Positions 18,344 through 29,151 of a stretch of DNA of 64,000 nt are shown here, in pieces. The notes under the pieces are model-generated. The model searched no databases. It had not been told where the DNA came from and saw only the letters and a program-made list of their open reading frames with translations. Source of the stretch: Catenulispora sp. MAP5-51 (GTDB lineage: Bacteria; Actinomycetota; Actinomycetes; Streptomycetales; Catenulisporaceae); the NCBI RefSeq assembly GCF_041261205.1, contig NZ_JBGCCH010000006.1:1-64000 (forward strand), written 5' to 3'. How positions within the stretch are numbered: position 1 is the stretch's first letter; each line of letters starts with the position of its first letter. The translations under genes were made by a program, and so were the position numbers.

Positions 18344-19150
18344 ATGACCACCGCCACCATGCCCGTCGCCGCAGCGACCACCAGCTCCAAGCCGTTCAAG
18401 ACCATCCGCCACAGCGCCGCGCTGGCCAAGCGCAGCCTGATCAAGACCATGCGCACCCCGGAGGCGCTGCTGGACGTGACGCTCCAGCCGGTGATCTTCC
18501 TGCTGCTGTTCACCTACGTCTTCGGCGGCGCGATCGCCGGATCGCAGAGCGTGTATCTGCAGTACCTGCTGCCCGGCATCCTCGCGCAGACCATCGCGAT
18601 GAGCGCCACGGCGATCGGCGTGAACATGAACACCGACATCTCCAAGGGGGTGTTCGACCGCTTCCGATCACTGCCGATCGCCAGGTCCGCACCACTGGTC
18701 GGCGCGGTGCTCGCGGACTTCGTCCGGTACGCGCTGGTCGCCGTCATCACCCTGACCGTCGGGTACGCCATGGGCTTCCGCATCCACACCAACCCGCTGG
18801 AGGCCGGCGCGGCGCTGCTCGTGGCCGTGGCCTTCGCGCTGGCGATGAGCTGGGTCTCGGTGTTCCTGGGCATGGTGGCCCGGACCCCGGGCGCGGTGCA
18901 GGGCATGATGATCCTGCTGGTGCTGCCGCTGAGCTTCGGCAGCAACACCTTCGTGCAGACCAAGACGCTGCCGGGCTGGATGCAGGGCTTCGTCAACGTC
19001 AACCCGATCACGCACTTGGCCGGCGTCTCCCGCAGTCTGTTCCTCGGCGGGCCGGTCGCCAACCACATGCTGTGGACGTTCGGCTGGATCGTCGGGCTGA
19101 CCGCGGTCTTCATGCCGCTGGCGCTGCGGGCCTACGGCCGCAAGGTGTGA
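18344..19150 (+). CDS. DrrB-type ABC exporter permease
   Basis: A 268-residue ABC-2 type permease with six predicted membrane helices, including VIFLLLFTYVFGGAIAG, YALVAVITLTVGYAMGF and WTFGWIVGLTAVFMPLALRAY, and the family hallmark YLLPGILAQTIAMSATAIGVNMNTDISKGVFDRFRSLPIAR. It partners the DrrA-type ATPase upstream. Its last 19 bases overlap the tail of the convergent AfsR-type gene. Confidence 0.85.
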   Translation: MTTATMPVAAATTSSKPFKTIRHSAALAKRSLIKTMRTPEALLDVTLQPVIFLLLFTYVFGGAIAGSQSVYLQYLLPGILAQTIAMSATAIGVNMNTDISKGVFDRFRSLPIARSAPLVGAVLADFVRYALVAVITLTVGYAMGFRIHTNPLEAGAALLVAVAFALAMSWVSVFLGMVARTPGAVQGMMILLVLPLSFGSNTFVQTKTLPGWMQGFVNVNPITHLAGVSRSLFLGGPVANHMLWTFGWIVGLTAVFMPLALRAYGRKV

Positions 19151-22100
19151 AGCCCGGCCTTGGGGTCGGACAGGACGTCCTCCGACAGGCCCAGCGTACG
19201 CGCGACGAGAACCTGGTTCTCGTCGCGCGTCGCGCTTTTCCCGACCGCGTAGCAGGACGCGTAGTCGGGTCGTTCCACGAGCTTCTTCACCAGCGCCGCG
19301 CGCTCGTCGTCGCTGCGGTCCGCCGCGCCGAGCATGTTCTCGGACGCGCCGAGCAGCCGCATCGCCAGCTCGCTGTCGCCGACGGTCTCGGCGTAGCGCG
19401 CGGTGCCGACCGCCATGCGGGCCTGGATCGGCATGTCGCGGGCGATCAGGGCGAAGCGGAAGGCCTGTCCCAGCGCTTCGCGGGCCGGCTCGGCCTCGCC
19501 GGCGTCCAGGTGCAGCATCGCGGCGATCGACTCGCGGAAGGCCAGCAGCTGCGGCGGCCCGTTCCAGTTGTCGATGAACTCCGCGGTGGCCATCCGCAGG
19601 AAGTGCCACGCGCTGTCGGGCTCGCCGGCGGCCCGGTGGTGCTCGGTCAGACCGATCAAGGCCACGAAGCAGCTCATCTGCGACCCGGAGCGCTGCGCGG
19701 ACTCCAGGACCTCCAGCAGCAGCCGCCGCGCCTCGTCGGTCTGGCCGAGCCGGGTGAGCAGCTGGGCCCGGTTGATCTGGATCTGCGCGGCGTTGGTGAA
19801 GGCGTTGATCTCGCGGATCAGCTCCAGCGCCTCGTTCTGGAGCCGCAGGGCCGTGGTGTCGTCGCCCTCGGTGACGGACAGCGAGGCCAGGCCGTTGAGG
19901 GCGGCCGACAGCCCCCAGCGGTCGCCGAGCTCTTCGAAGGCCTCGCGGGCCCGCTCCAGGTCCGCACGGACCGGGGCGCGGACCCCGGCGTTCTCCGCGG
20001 ACATCCCGCGCAGCAGGTACAGCATGGCGCCGACCCACGGGTCCGGATGGCCGGCGTACTTCTCGACCGCGGCCTCCAACTGCTCCCGGTCGTCGCTGAG
20101 CATCGGCGCCACCACCGCGCCGAGCGCCAGCAGCGGATGGTCGCAGCTGCCGGTCGCGGCGACCGTCTCGGCGATCTCCTCGGTCAGCCGCGGGATCTCC
20201 TCCCACAGGTAGTCCTCGAACACCGACGTGATGCGCTCCATCACGTACACGATCGCGTGGGCCTCCCTCGGCGAGGGACCCGGCACCGACAACGCCAGCC
20301 GGGTCCACGCGCGGCCCTCGTGGTTCTGGTCGCCGAGCGTCCAGTACCAGGTCATCGCGGCGCAGATGCGCACGGCGGTGTCGGCGTCCTCGTCGGCTGC
20401 CGCGAACCGCAGCGCGGCCAGGATGTTGTCCCGCTCGGCGTTCAGGCGCTTGAGCCACACCATCTGCGCGGCCCGCCGCAACTGCGGCTCGGCGGTCTCG
20501 GCCAGCGCCAGGAAGAAGGCGGCGTGGGCACGCCGGGTCTCGGCGAGCCGGTCGGCCTCGCCCAGCCGGTCGGCGCCGTACTCCCGCAGCGTCTCCAGCA
20601 TGCGGAACCGCGGATCCTGCCCGGCCTCGGTCGGCACCGCCTGCACCAGCGACTTGTCGACGAGCGCGGAGAGCAGATCGAAGGCGGAATCCGGGTCCAG
20701 CCCCGGCGTCACCGCCGCCGCGGCCTCGGCGGTGACCCCGCCGGGGAAGACCGCCAAGCGCTCGGCGAGATCCCGCTCGTCGTCGGAGAGCAGCTCCCAG
20801 CTCCAGGCCACGACGGCGCGCAGCGTCTGATGCCGCGGCATCGCGGTCCGGCTCCCGCCGGTGAGCAGCCGGAAACGGTCGCCGAGCCGGCCGGCGATCT
20901 GGTGCAGCGGCAGCGTCCGAAGCCGCGCGGCGGCCAGCTCGATCGCCAGCGGCAGACCGTCCAGGCTGCGGCAGATGCGGATCACGTCGGGCAGCGTGTC
21001 GGCGTCGACCGCGAAGTCCGGCACGACGGCGGCGGCCCGGTCGGCGAACAGCCGGACGGCGGGGTAGGCCAGGACCGTGTCGGCGACGGTGAGGGCGGGC
21101 TCGGGGCCGGCGTCGGGGAGGCTGCCGGGGAGGCTGGTGTTCGGTCCCGAGGCGGATCCGGAGGTACGACCGGAGCCGGGACCGGTGTTCGCTTCGGAAC
21201 CAAGACCAGAGCCACCACCGGAGGTCGACACAGCCTCGGATTCCGTTGCGGCGCCTCGGAACTCATCGAGTCCGTCGCCCTCCGGCAGTGCCAGCGGCGG
21301 CACCGGGAACAGGCTCTCGCCGTCGATGGTCAGCGGCTCCCGGCTGGTGGCCAGGACGCGCAGGCCCGGCGCGTGCCCCAGCAGCGTCTCGGCGAGGTCC
21401 GCGGCCGCGCCGACCAGGTGCTCGCAGTTGTCGAGGATGAGCAGGATCCGCTTCTCGGCCAGCGTCTCGATCAGGTGGCCCTGCGCGCTGCGCAGCATCG
21501 CGGCGGTGGCGGCGGGGTTCGCGTTGCCGGCCATCATGCGGCTCTCGCGCGGGCCCAGGGCCGACAGCACCGCCTGCGGCACCTCGCCGGGATCGGTGAC
21601 CGGGGCGAGCTCGGCGAGCCAGGCGCCGTCCGGGAACCGCTCCAGGACCCGCTGCGCGGCCTCGCCGGCCAGCCGGGTCTTGCCCGCGCCGCCCGGGCCG
21701 ACGAGCGTCACCAGGCGGGAGGCGTCCAGCATCCTGCCGATCCGCGCCACTTCCTCGTCGCGGCCGACGAAGCTGGTCAGCCGGGTCTTCAGGTTCGTGC
21801 GCGGGGCCTGCTCCAGGGCGGCCGGGGCCAGGGCGGGGTCGCTTCGCAGCACCGCGAGATGGACCTCGGCCAGCTCCTTGGACGGGTCGATGCCGAGCTG
21901 GTCGGCCAGCGCGCGCCGCACCTGTTCGTAGACGGCCAGCGCGTCGGCCTGCCGCCCCACCGCGTACAGGGCCCTGACATGCAGCGCGGCGACGTTCTCG
22001 CGCAGCGGGTGCTCGGCACTGAGCGCCTCGAGTTCGGCCAGTGCCTCGGCGGCCTGCCCCAGCCGCAGCTCGGCGTCGAGCCGGTCGGTCAGCGCGGCCA

Positions 22101-22572
22101 GCCGCAACTCGTCCAGCCGGGCGGCCGGCGCCACCGCAAACGCCGCGTCGGCGACGTCCGCCAGTGCCGGACCCCGCCACAGGGCCAGTGCCTCGCGCAG
22201 GGTGGCGCGCGCCGCGGAGGGGTCGTCGGCGCGCAACGCTTCGCGCCCCGACCGGGACAGCGATTCGAACCGCACCGCGTCCACCGACTCCGGCGCGATC
22301 GCCAGCCGGTAGCCGCCCGGCGCGGCGGCGAGCAGCGCGGGATCCCCGAGGACCTTGCGGACGCGGGAGATCAGGGACTGCAACGCGTTCGCGGCGCCCT
22401 CGGGCGGCTCGTCCGCCCAGAGCGCGTCCACGAGCGCCCCGATGGTGACCGCGCGCCCCGGGTCCAAGGCGAGCCGGGACATCAGGGTGCGCAGACGTGC
22501 GCCGCCGAGCGCCACCGGCGCGCCGTCGACGCGGATCTCGAGCGGGCCCAGGATCGATACGGTCAGCGGCAC
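19132..22572 (-). CDS. SARP/AfsR-type transcriptional regulator with NB-ARC and TPR domains
   Basis: A 1146-residue regulator. N-terminal OmpR-like winged helix (1-90, SILGPLEIRVDGAPVALGGARLRTLM and NALQSLISRVRKVLG), bacterial transcriptional activator domain (about 95-240, ending YEQVRRALADQLGIDPSKEL), P-loop LVGPGGAGKT (about 287), Walker B ILLILDNCEHLV, the LVTSRE-like box VLATSREPL, then a long TPR-like helical C-terminus. A Ser/Gly/Thr-rich insert of about 45 residues interrupts the ATPase region near residue 440-485. Such proteins activate secondary-metabolite or differentiation genes after ATP-dependent signal sensing. The GTG start sits just upstream of the SDR gene at 22729 in divergent orientation. 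The extreme C-terminus is encoded across a near-perfect palindrome and overlaps the ABC permease gene. Confidence 0.85.
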   Translation of the reverse strand: MPLTVSILGPLEIRVDGAPVALGGARLRTLMSRLALDPGRAVTIGALVDALWADEPPEGAANALQSLISRVRKVLGDPALLAAAPGGYRLAIAPESVDAVRFESLSRSGREALRADDPSAARATLREALALWRGPALADVADAAFAVAPAARLDELRLAALTDRLDAELRLGQAAEALAELEALSAEHPLRENVAALHVRALYAVGRQADALAVYEQVRRALADQLGIDPSKELAEVHLAVLRSDPALAPAALEQAPRTNLKTRLTSFVGRDEEVARIGRMLDASRLVTLVGPGGAGKTRLAGEAAQRVLERFPDGAWLAELAPVTDPGEVPQAVLSALGPRESRMMAGNANPAATAAMLRSAQGHLIETLAEKRILLILDNCEHLVGAAADLAETLLGHAPGLRVLATSREPLTIDGESLFPVPPLALPEGDGLDEFRGAATESEAVSTSGGGSGLGSEANTGPGSGRTSGSASGPNTSLPGSLPDAGPEPALTVADTVLAYPAVRLFADRAAAVVPDFAVDADTLPDVIRICRSLDGLPLAIELAAARLRTLPLHQIAGRLGDRFRLLTGGSRTAMPRHQTLRAVVAWSWELLSDDERDLAERLAVFPGGVTAEAAAAVTPGLDPDSAFDLLSALVDKSLVQAVPTEAGQDPRFRMLETLREYGADRLGEADRLAETRRAHAAFFLALAETAEPQLRRAAQMVWLKRLNAERDNILAALRFAAADEDADTAVRICAAMTWYWTLGDQNHEGRAWTRLALSVPGPSPREAHAIVYVMERITSVFEDYLWEEIPRLTEEIAETVAATGSCDHPLLALGAVVAPMLSDDREQLEAAVEKYAGHPDPWVGAMLYLLRGMSAENAGVRAPVRADLERAREAFEELGDRWGLSAALNGLASLSVTEGDDTTALRLQNEALELIREINAFTNAAQIQINRAQLLTRLGQTDEARRLLLEVLESAQRSGSQMSCFVALIGLTEHHRAAGEPDSAWHFLRMATAEFIDNWNGPPQLLAFRESIAAMLHLDAGEAEPAREALGQAFRFALIARDMPIQARMAVGTARYAETVGDSELAMRLLGASENMLGAADRSDDERAALVKKLVERPDYASCYAVGKSATRDENQVLVARTLGLSEDVLSDPKAGLHTLRP
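19198..19230. terminator. 33-base near-perfect palindrome, probable bidirectional terminator
   Basis: Arms of 16 bases (from ACGCGCGACGAGAACC) pair perfectly around a single central T, 48 bases downstream of the permease stop and inside the last codons of the convergent AfsR-type gene. On the plus strand CGCGCTTTTC follows, giving a short T run suited to termination of the ABC operon. Confidence 0.6.
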
Positions 22573-24526: not shown

Positions 24527-25231
24527 ATGCGGGTGACACTGCGGCACGGTCGATGGGCGGTGCTGGCGGCGGTCGGCGCCCTGGCGCTGGCGGGCTGCAG
24601 CTCGTCCGGGAGCTCGAAGGCGTCCGGCAGCACCGGCGGGGCTGGCTCGTCTCAGACCTCCGCGGCCTCCGGGTCGTCGGGCAAGAGCTGGCCCAAGGAG
24701 CCGGCGATGACCATCGACCCGAGCAAGAAGTACACGATGGTGCTGCACACCTCCCAGGGCGACATCACCATCGCGATGGACGCGGCCAAGGCGCCGCACA
24801 CCGTGAACTCCTTCAACTTCCTGGCCGCCCAGCACTTCTTCGACGGCAGCTACTGCCACCGGCTGTCCACCTCGCCCGGCCTGCAGATGCTGCAGTGCGG
24901 CGACCCGACGGCCGGCGCCACGCCGAAGGACACCGACGGCTCCAACGGCCCCGGCTACCAGTTCCAGGACGAGAACCTGGCCGGCGCCACCTACCCAGCC
25001 GGCACCGTGGCCATGGCCAACGCCGGCCCGAACACCAACGGCTCGCAGTTCTTCCTGGTCTTCGGCGACAGCCAGCTGCCCCCGTCCTACACGCCGTTCG
25101 GCACCATCACCGACGGCATGGGCACCCTGGTCCACGTCCAGTCCGGCGGCATCTCCAACCCCGGCCAGGACGGCACCGGCCGTCCGACGATCCCGGTCGA
25201 GCTGAAGTCGGTCACGGTCTCCGCCGGCTGA
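24527..25231 (+). CDS. Lipoprotein peptidyl-prolyl isomerase (cyclophilin)
   Basis: A 234-residue exported cyclophilin. The N-terminus is a lipoprotein signal ending in the lipobox LALAGC (Cys24), then a Ser/Gly linker of about 35 residues and a cyclophilin domain with HTVNSFNFLAAQHFFDGSYCHRL, YQFQDENL, AMANAGPNTNGSQFFLVFG and TPFGTITDG. The catalytic Arg of the HRL/HRx motif and the FFL region are present. It should fold secreted proteins outside the membrane. GACAGGAG before the ATG is a good ribosome site. No functional link to the neighbours is apparent. Confidence 0.87.
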   Translation: MRVTLRHGRWAVLAAVGALALAGCSSSGSSKASGSTGGAGSSQTSAASGSSGKSWPKEPAMTIDPSKKYTMVLHTSQGDITIAMDAAKAPHTVNSFNFLAAQHFFDGSYCHRLSTSPGLQMLQCGDPTAGATPKDTDGSNGPGYQFQDENLAGATYPAGTVAMANAGPNTNGSQFFLVFGDSQLPPSYTPFGTITDGMGTLVHVQSGGISNPGQDGTGRPTIPVELKSVTVSAG

Positions 25232-25331
25232 TCCGGCGCGAGCCGGGTAAGCCGTGCAAGCCGTGTAACCCGTCCGCCCGTCGGCCGGTGTGTCCAGAGG
25301 TGTACTGGCCACCGACCGACGAGGGGCGGGC

Positions 25332-25892
25332 ATGGAAGGGACGATCGCCGAACGGCGATTGCGGGCACAAGGCGGGGGATCGGCGGTGGACGCCGCGCGG
25401 GAGGACTCGTTCCGGGAGTTCGTCGAGGGCTCCTGGAGCCGTCTGCTCCGCACCGCGTACCTGCTCACCGGCGACCACGGAGCCGCCGAGGACCTGGTCC
25501 AGATCGCGCTGATGCGCACCTACCGGCACTGGGCCCGCATCGAGGCCTACGAAGCGCCCGAGGCCTACGTCCGCCGGGCGATGGTCAACGCCAACATCTC
25601 GGCCTGGCGGCGCCGCAAGCCGGTGGTCCACGTGATGGCCGAGCCGCCCGAGCCGCGGGCCGGGACGCAGGACCATCAGGACGCGTACGCGCTGCGCGAC
25701 GAGCTGTGGCGCGTGGTCTGCGCGATGTCGCCGCGCATGCGCACGGCCTTCGTCCTGCGCTACTTCGAGGACCTGACCGAGGCCGAGGTGGCCGCGGTGA
25801 TGGGCTGCGCGGTCGGCACGGTCAAGAGCCAGATCGCCCGCGGACTGGCGAAGCTGCGCACCGAGCTGCAAGCCGAGGGGAGTGCCCGATGA
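25332..25892 (+). CDS. ECF sigma factor (SigE family)
   Basis: A 186-residue sigma factor with region 2 (FREFVEGSWSRLLRTAYLLTGDHGAAEDLVQIALMRTYRHWARI) and region 4 (MRTAFVLRYFEDLTEAEVAAVMGCAVGTVKSQIARGLAKL), the pattern of the actinobacterial SigE-like ECF branch. I chose the ATG at 25332, preceded by GAGGGGCGGG, over an in-frame start at 25290. Its stop overlaps the start of the next gene by ATGA, so the sigma factor and its membrane partner are made together, the normal arrangement for sigma/anti-sigma pairs. Confidence 0.88.
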   Translation: MEGTIAERRLRAQGGGSAVDAAREDSFREFVEGSWSRLLRTAYLLTGDHGAAEDLVQIALMRTYRHWARIEAYEAPEAYVRRAMVNANISAWRRRKPVVHVMAEPPEPRAGTQDHQDAYALRDELWRVVCAMSPRMRTAFVLRYFEDLTEAEVAAVMGCAVGTVKSQIARGLAKLRTELQAEGSAR

Positions 25893-27262
25893 GCGCCGAC
25901 AAGCGGGCCGCCGCGCAGCGGGATGACGCCGCCGGACGCGAGGCTTTGGAGAACCAGTTCCGCACGATGTTCGCCGAACGCTCGGAGACGGTGCGGGTGA
26001 CGACGGCGCCGTACGCGAACCTCCGGCGGCGCATCGTCACGGCCCGCCGCCGGCGCCGGATGCGGATCGGCAGTGCCGGCGTCGCGTTCGCGGTGGCGGT
26101 CGTCGGGGTCGGCGTGTGGGCGACGGTGCCGGGCGGGCATCACGCGGCCGTCGCCCCGACCACGCCCGGCGTGGTGACCGGCGTCCCGGCGAAGGTCGTC
26201 TACGCCGACGGCCACACCGAGGTCTCCAACACCCTCGTGCGTGACGCCGCGCTGGACTGGCTGCGCACGAACTACACCGGGGATCTGAGCGGCACCACCG
26301 TGGTGACGACGTTCGACCAGCAAGCCCAGGGGGCGGCGGACGCCGTGCCGGACAGCAGCGCCGTCATCGTCGACGCGGACGACGGTGCCGTTCTGGCCCT
26401 CGGCGACGGCTGGAACCGGCCGCTGCCGATCGCCGACCTGATGAAGCCGATCCTGCTGGCGGCGGCGTTCCAGACCGGGAAGTACGGACCGGACTCGATG
26501 GTGCCGCTCGACACCGCGAAGCATCCGCTGTACTGGCCGCCGGGGGCACACCAGCCGATGACCTACCAGTCGGGGGACCACTCGGCCGACTGGCCGCCGG
26601 AATCACCCAACACGAGCATCGTCGACTATGCCGTCTCGCTCCGTTCGGCCGCCCAACTCGGTGCCAACGGTCCGTTCGCCCAAGTGGAACTGGGTTCGGG
26701 CATGTCACCGTCGGTGTTGCGCGACATGGGCGTCAGTCTCGGCCTGCCGAGCGCCACCGAGAACCTGGTGCCCGTGCCGAGCCTGGTGCTGGGGCCGGTG
26801 AAGGCGACTCCGCTGACGATGGCGACCGTCAACGCGACCTTCGCCGACGGTGGCGTCTGGCGGGAATCCCGGATGGTCGGCAAGCTGCTCGGCAAGAACG
26901 GCCGGGTCCTCTGGACTCCGCAGGACAAAGCCTCCCGAGTCCTGTCGCAGGCCGCCGCGGCACAGGTCACCGATGTGCTGCACTCGGCGCTGGCCGACGG
27001 CACCACCGGAGGCGGCCTCGACTACAGGACGATCGCCGGTGCCCGGACCTGGGCCATGGCCGCGGCCTCCAGCTCGCAGAACGCGGCCTGGACGGTCGGT
27101 GCCGACTCGCGTTATGTGATCTCGGTGGGGATGTCCAGGGAGGACGAGAACGGGAACCTTCTCCCGCTCGCCCAAGACAACCGCTACGGTCCCGGGATCG
27201 GCAGCCAGTTCGTGGGCAAGACGTGGGCGGGCCTGGTGCAGGCCGTGAGGAAGCTCGGCTGA
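25889..27262 (+). CDS. Membrane anti-sigma-like protein with inactive transpeptidase (PBP) domain
   Basis: A 457-residue single-pass protein: 60 cytoplasmic residues ending in an Arg-rich stretch, one helix (about 61-80) and a large outer domain. That domain follows the penicillin-binding transpeptidase order closely: TTVVTTFDQQAQGAAD, AVIVDADDGAVLAL, then IADLMKPILLAAAF where active enzymes have PGSTFKP, VPSLVLGPVKATPLTMATVNATFADGGV, DGRVLW-like NGRVLW, and AGARTW...AAWTVGADSRYVISVGM where active enzymes have AGKTGT...DAWFVGY. Ser of SxxK is Asp183, SxN reads SLR and KTG reads ART, so it cannot acylate. Inferred role: membrane partner of the ECF factor, possibly sensing cell-wall precursors or beta-lactams without catalysis. 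Confidence 0.75.
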   Translation: MSADKRAAAQRDDAAGREALENQFRTMFAERSETVRVTTAPYANLRRRIVTARRRRRMRIGSAGVAFAVAVVGVGVWATVPGGHHAAVAPTTPGVVTGVPAKVVYADGHTEVSNTLVRDAALDWLRTNYTGDLSGTTVVTTFDQQAQGAADAVPDSSAVIVDADDGAVLALGDGWNRPLPIADLMKPILLAAAFQTGKYGPDSMVPLDTAKHPLYWPPGAHQPMTYQSGDHSADWPPESPNTSIVDYAVSLRSAAQLGANGPFAQVELGSGMSPSVLRDMGVSLGLPSATENLVPVPSLVLGPVKATPLTMATVNATFADGGVWRESRMVGKLLGKNGRVLWTPQDKASRVLSQAAAAQVTDVLHSALADGTTGGGLDYRTIAGARTWAMAAASSSQNAAWTVGADSRYVISVGMSREDENGNLLPLAQDNRYGPGIGSQFVGKTWAGLVQAVRKLG

Positions 27263-27329: not shown

Positions 27330-29015
27330 TCAGCGCAGCGCCACCCGCCGCGCCAGCCCCAGCGGCAACCCGCCAGACCCGGCGATCGTGTCGTGGAACT
27401 GCTTCAGCGTTCCCTTGCCCTGCTCCAAATACTGCGCCCGGATCGCCTCGATCTCCAGGCATCCGGTCAGATACGAAGGCGCCTGCGTCGGCCACGCGCA
27501 GTACCGGTTCACCTCGCCCTTGGCGGTCTCCGGCGTCAGCGAGGCCTTCGAGGCCATGAACGCCTCGGCCTCCTCCACGCTCATCTCCCCGGTGTGCAGC
27601 GCGGTGTCCACCACGATCCGCGCCGCCCGGAAGATGCGCGCGTCCAGGTGCCCGAGCTCGTGCCGGGGGTCGGCGAAGTAGCCCTGCTCGCGCATCGCGG
27701 TCTCGATGTACAGCGCCCAGCCCTCGGTGAAGTACGGGGTGGTGAACGCGCTGCGCACCGGCCGGCCCTGCTCGGCCACCCACGACAGGTGCCAGTGGTG
27801 CCCGGGGTAGGCCTCGTGCACGGCGATCGTCGGCATCGAGACCCGCGCGTTGGTCTTCAGCCGGCCGAGCACCGCCTCCGGCGAGGAGCCGGTCGGCGTG
27901 AACGGGACGTTGAACACGCCGGTCCGCGACGGGGTCAGCGCCGGCGGCCGGTTGTAGGAAGCCACCGACAGCACCGCGCGCAGGAACTCCGGGCCCGGCT
28001 GCACCAGGCACTCCTCGCCCGGCGCGAAGGACACCAGGCCGTGCTCCCTCGTGAACCGCCGGGCCCGCTCGGTCTCGGCGGTGTACTCCGCGAGCATCGC
28101 CTCCTCGGTCGGCGGGAAGTCCTCGCAGAGCATCTCCATCGTCGCGCGCCAGTCGCGGGACCCGCCGGGGATCCGCGCCGCCAGCTCCCGCATCTCGCCG
28201 TCGAGCCGGTCGTACGCGGCCTCGCCGCGCCGGTGCAGCTCCGCCGTGTCGTAGCCGAGCATCTCGACGTCCTGGAGCAGCCGCGAGTAGGTCTGCTCGC
28301 CGAGCCGCCAGTCGCCTTCGCAGCGCTCTGCGAAGTCCGTCAGGAACGCCGCCAGCTCGTCGAACGCCTCCGCGGCCGGCTCGGCGGCCTCGGCCACCCG
28401 GGCCCGCAGGGTCTCGTCCTGGAACATCGCCGGCAGCGACCCGGTCAGGAACGACCGCCCGGTGCGCGCCTGCCCCAGGGACCGGTTCACCAACAGCTTC
28501 GGGGCCAGGCCCGGGTCGAGGTTGCGGCGGCAGGCCGCCAGTACCTCAGGGACCTGCTTCAGCTTCTCCAGCGACTCCTCGGCCAGACGCTCCTCCGGCC
28601 GGGTCCGCTGCTGGAGCGGGATGTAGAGGCCGTACAGCGCGACGCTCACGTAGTCGGCGGGGTCGCGGAGCCACACCTGCCGTCCGGACATGATGGCGTG
28701 CTTGCGCAGCTGGGCCCGGATCAGGTCGCGGTCGACCCCGTCCTCGAAGGCTCCGTCCCCGGCGTCGTCTCCGGCATCGTTCCCGGCGTCGTCCCCGCCC
28801 CCGGCCCCGGCCAGCGCGTCCAGCTTCGCCAGGTGGGCCGCCGCCTCGCGGGCCCGGCGCTCGTAGCCCTCGGCCGAGAGATCGCCGAGGGTCCTCGTGC
28901 GCTCCGGATCGTCGGAGCCCATGATCGTGGCCGAGACCGGATTCGAGTCCAGGTGCCAGCCGACCGCCGCGGCGACCGCCGACGCCACCGGGCTCTGGGA
29001 GTCTTCAGTGGTCAT
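27330..29015 (-). CDS. DUF885 family putative metallopeptidase
   Basis: A 561-residue DUF885 protein. The family's HExxH-like zinc signature appears as VHEAYPGHHWHLS, with a distal Glu helix (TEGWALYIETAMREQGYF, followed by ELGHLDARIFRAARIVVDTALHTG). These proteins are M32/thimet-oligopeptidase-like metallohydrolases, mostly uncharacterised. No signal peptide is evident, so it is probably cytoplasmic. The ATG at 29015 begins MTTEDSQSP; an earlier in-frame start at 29045 is less likely. An Asp/Gly-rich loop (GAGGGDDAGNDAGDDAGDGA) near residue 85 is an expanded low-complexity stretch. Confidence 0.85.
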   Translation of the reverse strand: MTTEDSQSPVASAVAAAVGWHLDSNPVSATIMGSDDPERTRTLGDLSAEGYERRAREAAAHLAKLDALAGAGGGDDAGNDAGDDAGDGAFEDGVDRDLIRAQLRKHAIMSGRQVWLRDPADYVSVALYGLYIPLQQRTRPEERLAEESLEKLKQVPEVLAACRRNLDPGLAPKLLVNRSLGQARTGRSFLTGSLPAMFQDETLRARVAEAAEPAAEAFDELAAFLTDFAERCEGDWRLGEQTYSRLLQDVEMLGYDTAELHRRGEAAYDRLDGEMRELAARIPGGSRDWRATMEMLCEDFPPTEEAMLAEYTAETERARRFTREHGLVSFAPGEECLVQPGPEFLRAVLSVASYNRPPALTPSRTGVFNVPFTPTGSSPEAVLGRLKTNARVSMPTIAVHEAYPGHHWHLSWVAEQGRPVRSAFTTPYFTEGWALYIETAMREQGYFADPRHELGHLDARIFRAARIVVDTALHTGEMSVEEAEAFMASKASLTPETAKGEVNRYCAWPTQAPSYLTGCLEIEAIRAQYLEQGKGTLKQFHDTIAGSGGLPLGLARRVALR

Positions 29016-29151
29016 GGGCCGACCGTAGCGCTCCAAGAGCATCAACGGCGATGAAGATCCCCCCTTGACCGACCCTCGTCGCCGGTCTGGACCAGTGCCG
29101 ACGGTGCGGCACCGGCCCAGGCCGGCATGCTCGGAACCTCGCGCACCGGGC

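Follow-up and report, generated by a model that had tools for sequence, protein, structure and literature searches.

What does the membrane partner of an ECF sigma factor do with a penicillin-binding protein (PBP) domain whose active site has been lost? The locus raising this question lies on contig C6 of a 10.9-Mb source genome (G000), that of a soil actinobacterium, within the 64,000-nucleotide stretch of DNA that was analysed as a whole and that we call the window. A first-pass annotation of this stretch had placed an ECF sigma factor with an adjoining membrane partner at 25332..27262, and both the coordinates and the arrangement were borne out. The first gene (25332..25892, forward strand) encodes a 186-aa protein with Sigma70_r2 and r4_2 domains that scored 185.4 bits against TIGR02983 (NCBI-curated cut-off, 141.55) and so belongs to the SigE family. 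The second (25889..27262, forward strand) encodes a 457-aa partner whose start codon overlaps the sigma stop codon in the sequence ATGA.

The sigma pairing is also found beyond this genome, as a survey of homologues suggested by the annotation revealed: a sigma orthologue lies directly upstream of the partner gene in 8 of 8 complete loci, with 75–89% identity in the seven other than the source genome's. The neighbours of the gene pair in the window are 24527-25231 (forward strand), presumably encoding a secreted cyclophilin look-alike, and 27330-29045 (reverse strand), whose product we take to be DUF885-like; several related loci are flanked by ORFs of similar size to these two. Elsewhere in the window, a 1146-aa ORF at 19132-22572 (reverse strand) starts, we assume, like an AfsR/BTAD-type regulator.

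Upstream of the sigma gene we identified a conserved promoter-like block, TGTAACCCG ... GGTGTGTC (25264..25294, forward strand), in an alignment of eight loci. All eight contain TGTAACCCG, and the second conserved stretch, ending in GTGTCC, varies in two of them (L017 and L023). The block is similar to ECF promoters that have AAC in their -35 element, and we propose that it may serve as an autoregulated promoter of this kind. Two strict promoter patterns had a single occurrence in the source genome, at the sigma gene's own site, and a looser one gave two other matches; no regulon was found in this genome by means of the block. A common GTAAC box upstream of sigma genes is not claimed, having been present in only 3 of 30 loci scanned, the window included.

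A transpeptidase domain without its catalytic serine

The extracytoplasmic part of the partner (residues 97-457; 26177..27259, forward strand) is a dead class A transpeptidase domain. The partner scored 32.7 bits against PF00905 (cut-off, 22.1), and its predicted structure matched the class A PBP fold over residues 97-457, a match that may have been favoured by the class A PBPs making up 6 of the 35 rows of the structure model's alignment; the Pfam, NCBIfam and phmmer searches of the single sequence are independent of that alignment. The transpeptidase fold and its preserved framework, both proposed by the first-pass annotation, were thus recovered by profile and by structure prediction. The partner is not itself a class A PBP, since GT51 (PF00912) had no match in its 457 aa at E-values up to 1, and no Pfam domain other than PF00905 exceeded its cut-off.

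We aligned the family to 49 reference transpeptidase domains, comprising 10 class A PBPs from the same genus and 39 further domains (one of the 59 loci, L040, was not recovered in this alignment). All 49 references carry S, K, S, N, K, T and G at positions 183, 186, 258, 260, 390, 391 and 392, at which the nine genomic members of the dead-PBP family carry D, K, G/A, N/D, M/A, A/P and G/A. The window partner has D183-L-M-K186 at the SxxK position (26435..26446), G258-A259-N260 at SxN (26660..26668) and M390-A391-A392 at KTG (27056..27064), all on the forward strand, so that none of the three motifs of an active PBP is intact (D-x-x-K, GAN and MAA). Asp183 and Lys186 were found in 35 of the 35 rows with a letter there, from 37 aligned proteins and loci that are not all independent species and in which some protein/locus pairs may represent the same gene; Asn260 was retained in 32 of 35. 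The annotation was right that the nucleophile had been lost through a change of SxxK to DLMK, and the conservation of Asp183, which it had proposed as a check, is not due to chance. Its other two motif assignments, SLR for SxN (S250-L251-R252) and ART for KTG (A385-R386-T387), were displaced by the alignment with intact PBPs and are rejected as motif remnants, both merely adjoining the true positions, and the retained Lys186 and Asn260 had gone unmentioned.

The KTG position varies across the family (M/A/L, A/P and A/G), with Lys and Thr lost and, in some of the rows, Gly as well. The deep members L023, L024 and P0035 have MPGT or MPGN here, and the second Thr of KTGT is retained in L023 and L024; this looks like a partly degraded KTGT and is perhaps an intermediate state of decay. 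In PBPs, KTG helps to hold the carboxylate of the substrate or drug. Because the KTG Lys and Thr (with the Gly in some rows) and the SxN Ser have been lost, a beta-lactam-like ligand is unlikely, and the annotation's suggestion that the domain still binds a stem peptide or beta-lactam was not supported. Judging from these residues, either ligand appears less likely for the ectodomain, and another ligand or a protein partner would be possible.

The alternative that the dead pocket nonetheless binds stem peptide, lipid II or a beta-lactam without acylation, with this binding as the signal, differs only in the nature of the signal from the docking sensor that we favour, and the odds of the two overlap. 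We consider it unlikely. The fold framework is kept, two residues of the former catalytic network (Lys186 and Asn260) are retained and the changes around residue 183 are fixed, all of which would suit such binding, but the nucleophilic Ser, the SxN Ser and the KTG Lys and Thr, which bind the ligand in PBPs, are gone. A Bacillus PBP, PbpP, can be cited on both sides: in the excerpts of the report concerned, it senses beta-lactams for an ECF sigma factor and its S301A form still activates when overproduced, whereas its response to beta-lactams needed Ser301 (PMC8092216).

Constraint, distribution and origin

Mean pairwise identity among 29 family members was 0.83 for residues 18-57, the most conserved part of the partner, 0.77 for the transmembrane helix and 0.57 for residues 151-457. 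The ratio pN/pS, computed from 21 pairs among seven loci, was 0.32 for the sigma factor, a similar 0.35 in the tail core and 0.77 in the ectodomain, from which we conclude that the outside drifts and the inside is held; alternatively, the fast evolution of the ectodomain could reflect weak constraint. Fourteen positions are fixed in the nine genomic members and different from the genus's class A PBP. Residues 171-201 contain nine of these 14 and six of the 38 positions invariant in both groups (Fisher's test, P = 0.0014, which is too favourable as the stretch was picked after viewing the positions). Hypergeometric tests on the same residues involve the same after-the-fact choice and were not relied on. 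This distribution suggests a pocket around residue 183 that was remodelled and then retained.

Two further explanations bear on these rates. A decaying PBP copy that came to lie behind a sigma gene by chance would be expected to have dead motifs and a fast-evolving ectodomain, but the open frame is intact in 8 of 8 complete loci, the Asp and Lys occur in 35 of 35 rows, the tail is constrained and the gene co-occurs with the sigma gene, making this explanation very improbable. Equally remote, in our judgement, is a domain that is still an enzyme, with a new catalytic pair formed by Asp183 and Lys186: both residues are present in all 35 rows, as such a pair would be, yet the KTG position is variable, the ectodomain evolves fast and we know of no precedent.

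Two protein searches scored the 7998 candidates sharing most words; the first revealed 28 close homologues besides the partner itself, and the full-length homologues with a name are from Catenulispora. Three relatives from named records (L001-L003) are 24–27% identical. Among 14 genomes searched from the bacterial family, full-length members were found in 8 of 10 from the same genus. A ninth (G009) has the sigma gene, the partner's first residues and the remainder on two contigs, which fits one split gene. In the tenth (G011, 77% complete) and in four genomes from two sister genera, nothing matched the greater part of the partner, and sigma factors did not exceed 54% identity. Across 296 genomes of the class, only the match from the source genome reached the tail among those listed, with five candidates scored per genome.

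In a tree of 58 transpeptidase domains, the dead-PBP family formed one clade (support 100/100). Its sister group was the class A PBP of the genus itself (96/82), a join that carries a long-branch warning; the PBPs in the tree were gathered with the family's own profile, and closer ones may exist beyond the sample. Two further ideas were considered and dropped. That a class A PBP had lost its GT51 domain by internal deletion was not borne out, as residues 95-125 compared no better with two whole class A PBPs than shuffles did. At the nearest non-orthologous sigma gene (G003, 54% identical), the neighbouring protein resembled the partner in the tail (P = 0.022), but no exchange of ectodomains is claimed because the ectodomain comparison also gave P = 0.027.

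The tail and the partners of other SigE-family sigma factors

The partner begins with an Arg-rich tail (residues 1-57; 25889..26059, forward strand) that ends in a run of Arg right before a single transmembrane helix predicted from hydropathy (residues ~58-80; 26060..26128, forward strand), in agreement with the basic cytoplasmic tail of about 60 residues that had been annotated. The basic residues just before the helix imply an N-in topology, and the identity of the tail, with a motif common to other partners, makes it a candidate module for contacting the sigma factor. No anti-sigma domain was found among the partner's Pfam and NCBIfam matches, and no solved anti-sigma factor in the PDB matched at E-values up to 10, either with this tail or with 22 of 40 tails picked by eye. 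At ~57 residues the tail also falls short of the usual length of class I anti-sigma domains, for which a mean of 101 ± 33 aa is given in the excerpts of a published survey (PMC7406223).

The partner might help the sigma factor as a positive co-factor, or anchor it at the membrane, and not be an anti-sigma factor, a reading in keeping with the lack of a recognisable anti-sigma domain and with the fact that the sign of regulation is invisible in sequence. We think it improbable, given that the overlapping downstream gene, the short N-in tail, the one transmembrane helix and the outside domain resemble membrane anti-sigma factors of the RsiV type.

The arrangement is widespread in the source genome, which contains 48 SigE-family sigma genes over the cut-off (L077, L078, L117-L161 and the one in the window). 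We devised a layout rule requiring a next gene within 60 nt that encodes a basic patch and one transmembrane helix starting from residue 30-75. The window partner has this layout, as do 40 of the 48 loci overall, in which the next gene lies within 60 nt, encodes at least 120 aa and has one predicted helix from residue 35-66 and a basic patch. Among the other eight, four had no called ORF, two had a distant ORF, one had an enzyme-looking next gene and one was otherwise similar with no helix over the threshold. By the same procedure only one of 117 control genes passed (43 of the 117 had the next ORF within 60 nt), and this gene, whose start is doubtful as read, encodes a cyclophilin-like lipoprotein. 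The controls were neither sigma genes nor relatives of the partners, 14 having been excluded, and they supersede an earlier control (0 of 43 window genes) that was weak as its ORF starts were the longest possible. In other genomes of the class, the layout was found at 21 of 26 sigma loci, one taken from each genome and one of them incomplete. As a separate observation, the genome's best-scoring SigE-family sigma gene (L117, G000:C10:147574-148044) is followed by an ORF that is not a membrane partner, and the best ones of G031 and G052 (L167 and L168) likewise have no membrane partner next door; the ORF after all three is, we presume, an AMP-ligase look-alike.

The tails of these 40 partners resemble one another. 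When each was compared with its own shuffles using a leave-one-out profile, 34 of 40 reached P < 0.05, and 31 of 40 did so after removal of the first three residues and of the 12 before the helix, which include the Arg patch. The window tail resembles the others only marginally (P = 0.03-0.04; 0.038 and 0.033 in the two tests). The outside parts are mostly unannotated: at an E-value of 0.01, Pfam revealed six families, each in one member, namely models for transpeptidase (the window partner), thioredoxin, DsbA, DUF4232, Ig-like and Rv2743c, and no transpeptidase model matched any of the other 39. Units of a sigma factor plus partner are thus common in the class, and the one in the window stands out by its dead PBP domain; the 39 other partners of the same layout had escaped the first-pass annotation. 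One of them (L120:2734-3546, reverse strand), probably the thioredoxin/DsbA-like member, carries a CPPC motif on the outside and is conceivably a redox sensor for its own sigma factor. That every outside domain might be a dead enzyme was not upheld, as this probable DsbA-like partner retains its CPPC.

A proposed sensor and its relation to known systems

From the features obtained by calculation (the pairing, fold, dead motifs, conservation, nearest relative and common tail motif), we favour, at a probability of about 0.6, a two-gene signalling unit in which the tail of a single-pass partner controls the sigma factor and the dead PBP domain acts outside as a docking sensor. The steps that we infer extend from tail–sigma contact and its negative sign, through the ligand and the release step, to autoregulation. 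The sigma factor would be made together with its own membrane partner, whose short basic tail would hold or otherwise control it, most likely as an anti-sigma factor. The outside domain, a class A PBP transpeptidase domain with its nucleophile position fixed as Asp and with the genus's class A PBP as its sister, would be a docking module that cannot be acylated and would report the state of the envelope. Gain or loss of contact with a protein or polymer of the cell wall would be a more likely signal than beta-lactam binding, and would free the tail from the sigma factor by proteolysis or a change of shape, after which the freed sigma factor would also raise its own operon. The sigma pairing and co-absence, the constraint on the tail, the common tail motif, the same layout elsewhere, D183/K186 and the PBP sister group all favour this unit, and against it stand the lack of an anti-sigma match, the short tail, the fast ectodomain, the KTG remnants, the marginal P value of the tail and the lack of a regulon.

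Several known systems share parts of this design. BlaR1 and MecR1 are membrane proteins with a PBP- or beta-lactamase-like outside sensor domain that are acylated on Ser, have a cytoplasmic metalloprotease domain and act on a repressor; the partner differs from them in having Asp in place of the Ser and no protease domain detected by Pfam. It shares the transpeptidase fold with class A PBPs (PBP1a/PBP1b), its domain being sister to that of the genus, but has no detected GT51, has all three catalytic motifs changed and has a tail like those of sigma partners. With actinobacterial partners of SigE-family sigma factors it shares the tail, the basic patch, the one transmembrane helix and the gene overlap or close spacing. 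In the excerpts of the PbpP report (PMC8092216), PbpP of Bacillus thuringiensis is a penicillin-labelled PBP encoded with the ECF sigma factor sigma-P as its outside sensor and separate from the anti-sigma factor RsiP, whereas here the PBP domain is built into the sigma factor's own membrane partner and lacks the Ser. RsiV, the partner of sigma-V in Bacillus subtilis, is likewise a one-helix protein (residues 37-59) of which little lies in the cytoplasm, and the part outside is itself the receptor for a cell-wall enzyme, lysozyme; unlike the domain described here, that part consists of DUF4163 and DUF3298 and is not PBP-derived, according to the excerpts of the source (PMC4183432).

No sigma partner with a PBP domain appeared in the literature searched (titles, starts of abstracts and best-ranked papers), in which the PbpP papers came nearest. 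The words 'penicillin' and 'transpeptidase' are absent from the main texts of PMC7406223 and PMC8103513, and 'penicillin' from that of PMC8999054. The two main papers on the classification of ECF sigma factors (Casas-Pastor 2021; Huang 2015) may describe the partner layout, and we claim no novelty for it.

The partner would combine the idea of PbpP, a PBP as sensor, with that of RsiV, an anti-sigma factor as receptor, in one protein and without acylation. Dead enzymes that serve as sensors are known in other folds. More tentatively, and with the odds against it, the sensor could be a copied domain of the type found in the bacterium's own class A PBP, locked by Asp in a non-acylable and perhaps permanently 'occupied-like' state. 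It would read the peptidoglycan machinery through competition with the active PBP or by docking at the same place, and would be one of about forty parallel units with differing outside domains and similar sigma-facing tails. The one-helix partners behind most of the SigE-family sigma genes examined represent a large, unassigned set of possible envelope sensors, among which the window partner is unusual in that the origin of its outside domain can be recognised. Its disabled active site suggests that it senses the state of the cell wall by some means other than the acylation that penicillin targets undergo and that it, if the proposal is true, would link the peptidoglycan machinery to transcription without acylation by a beta-lactam.
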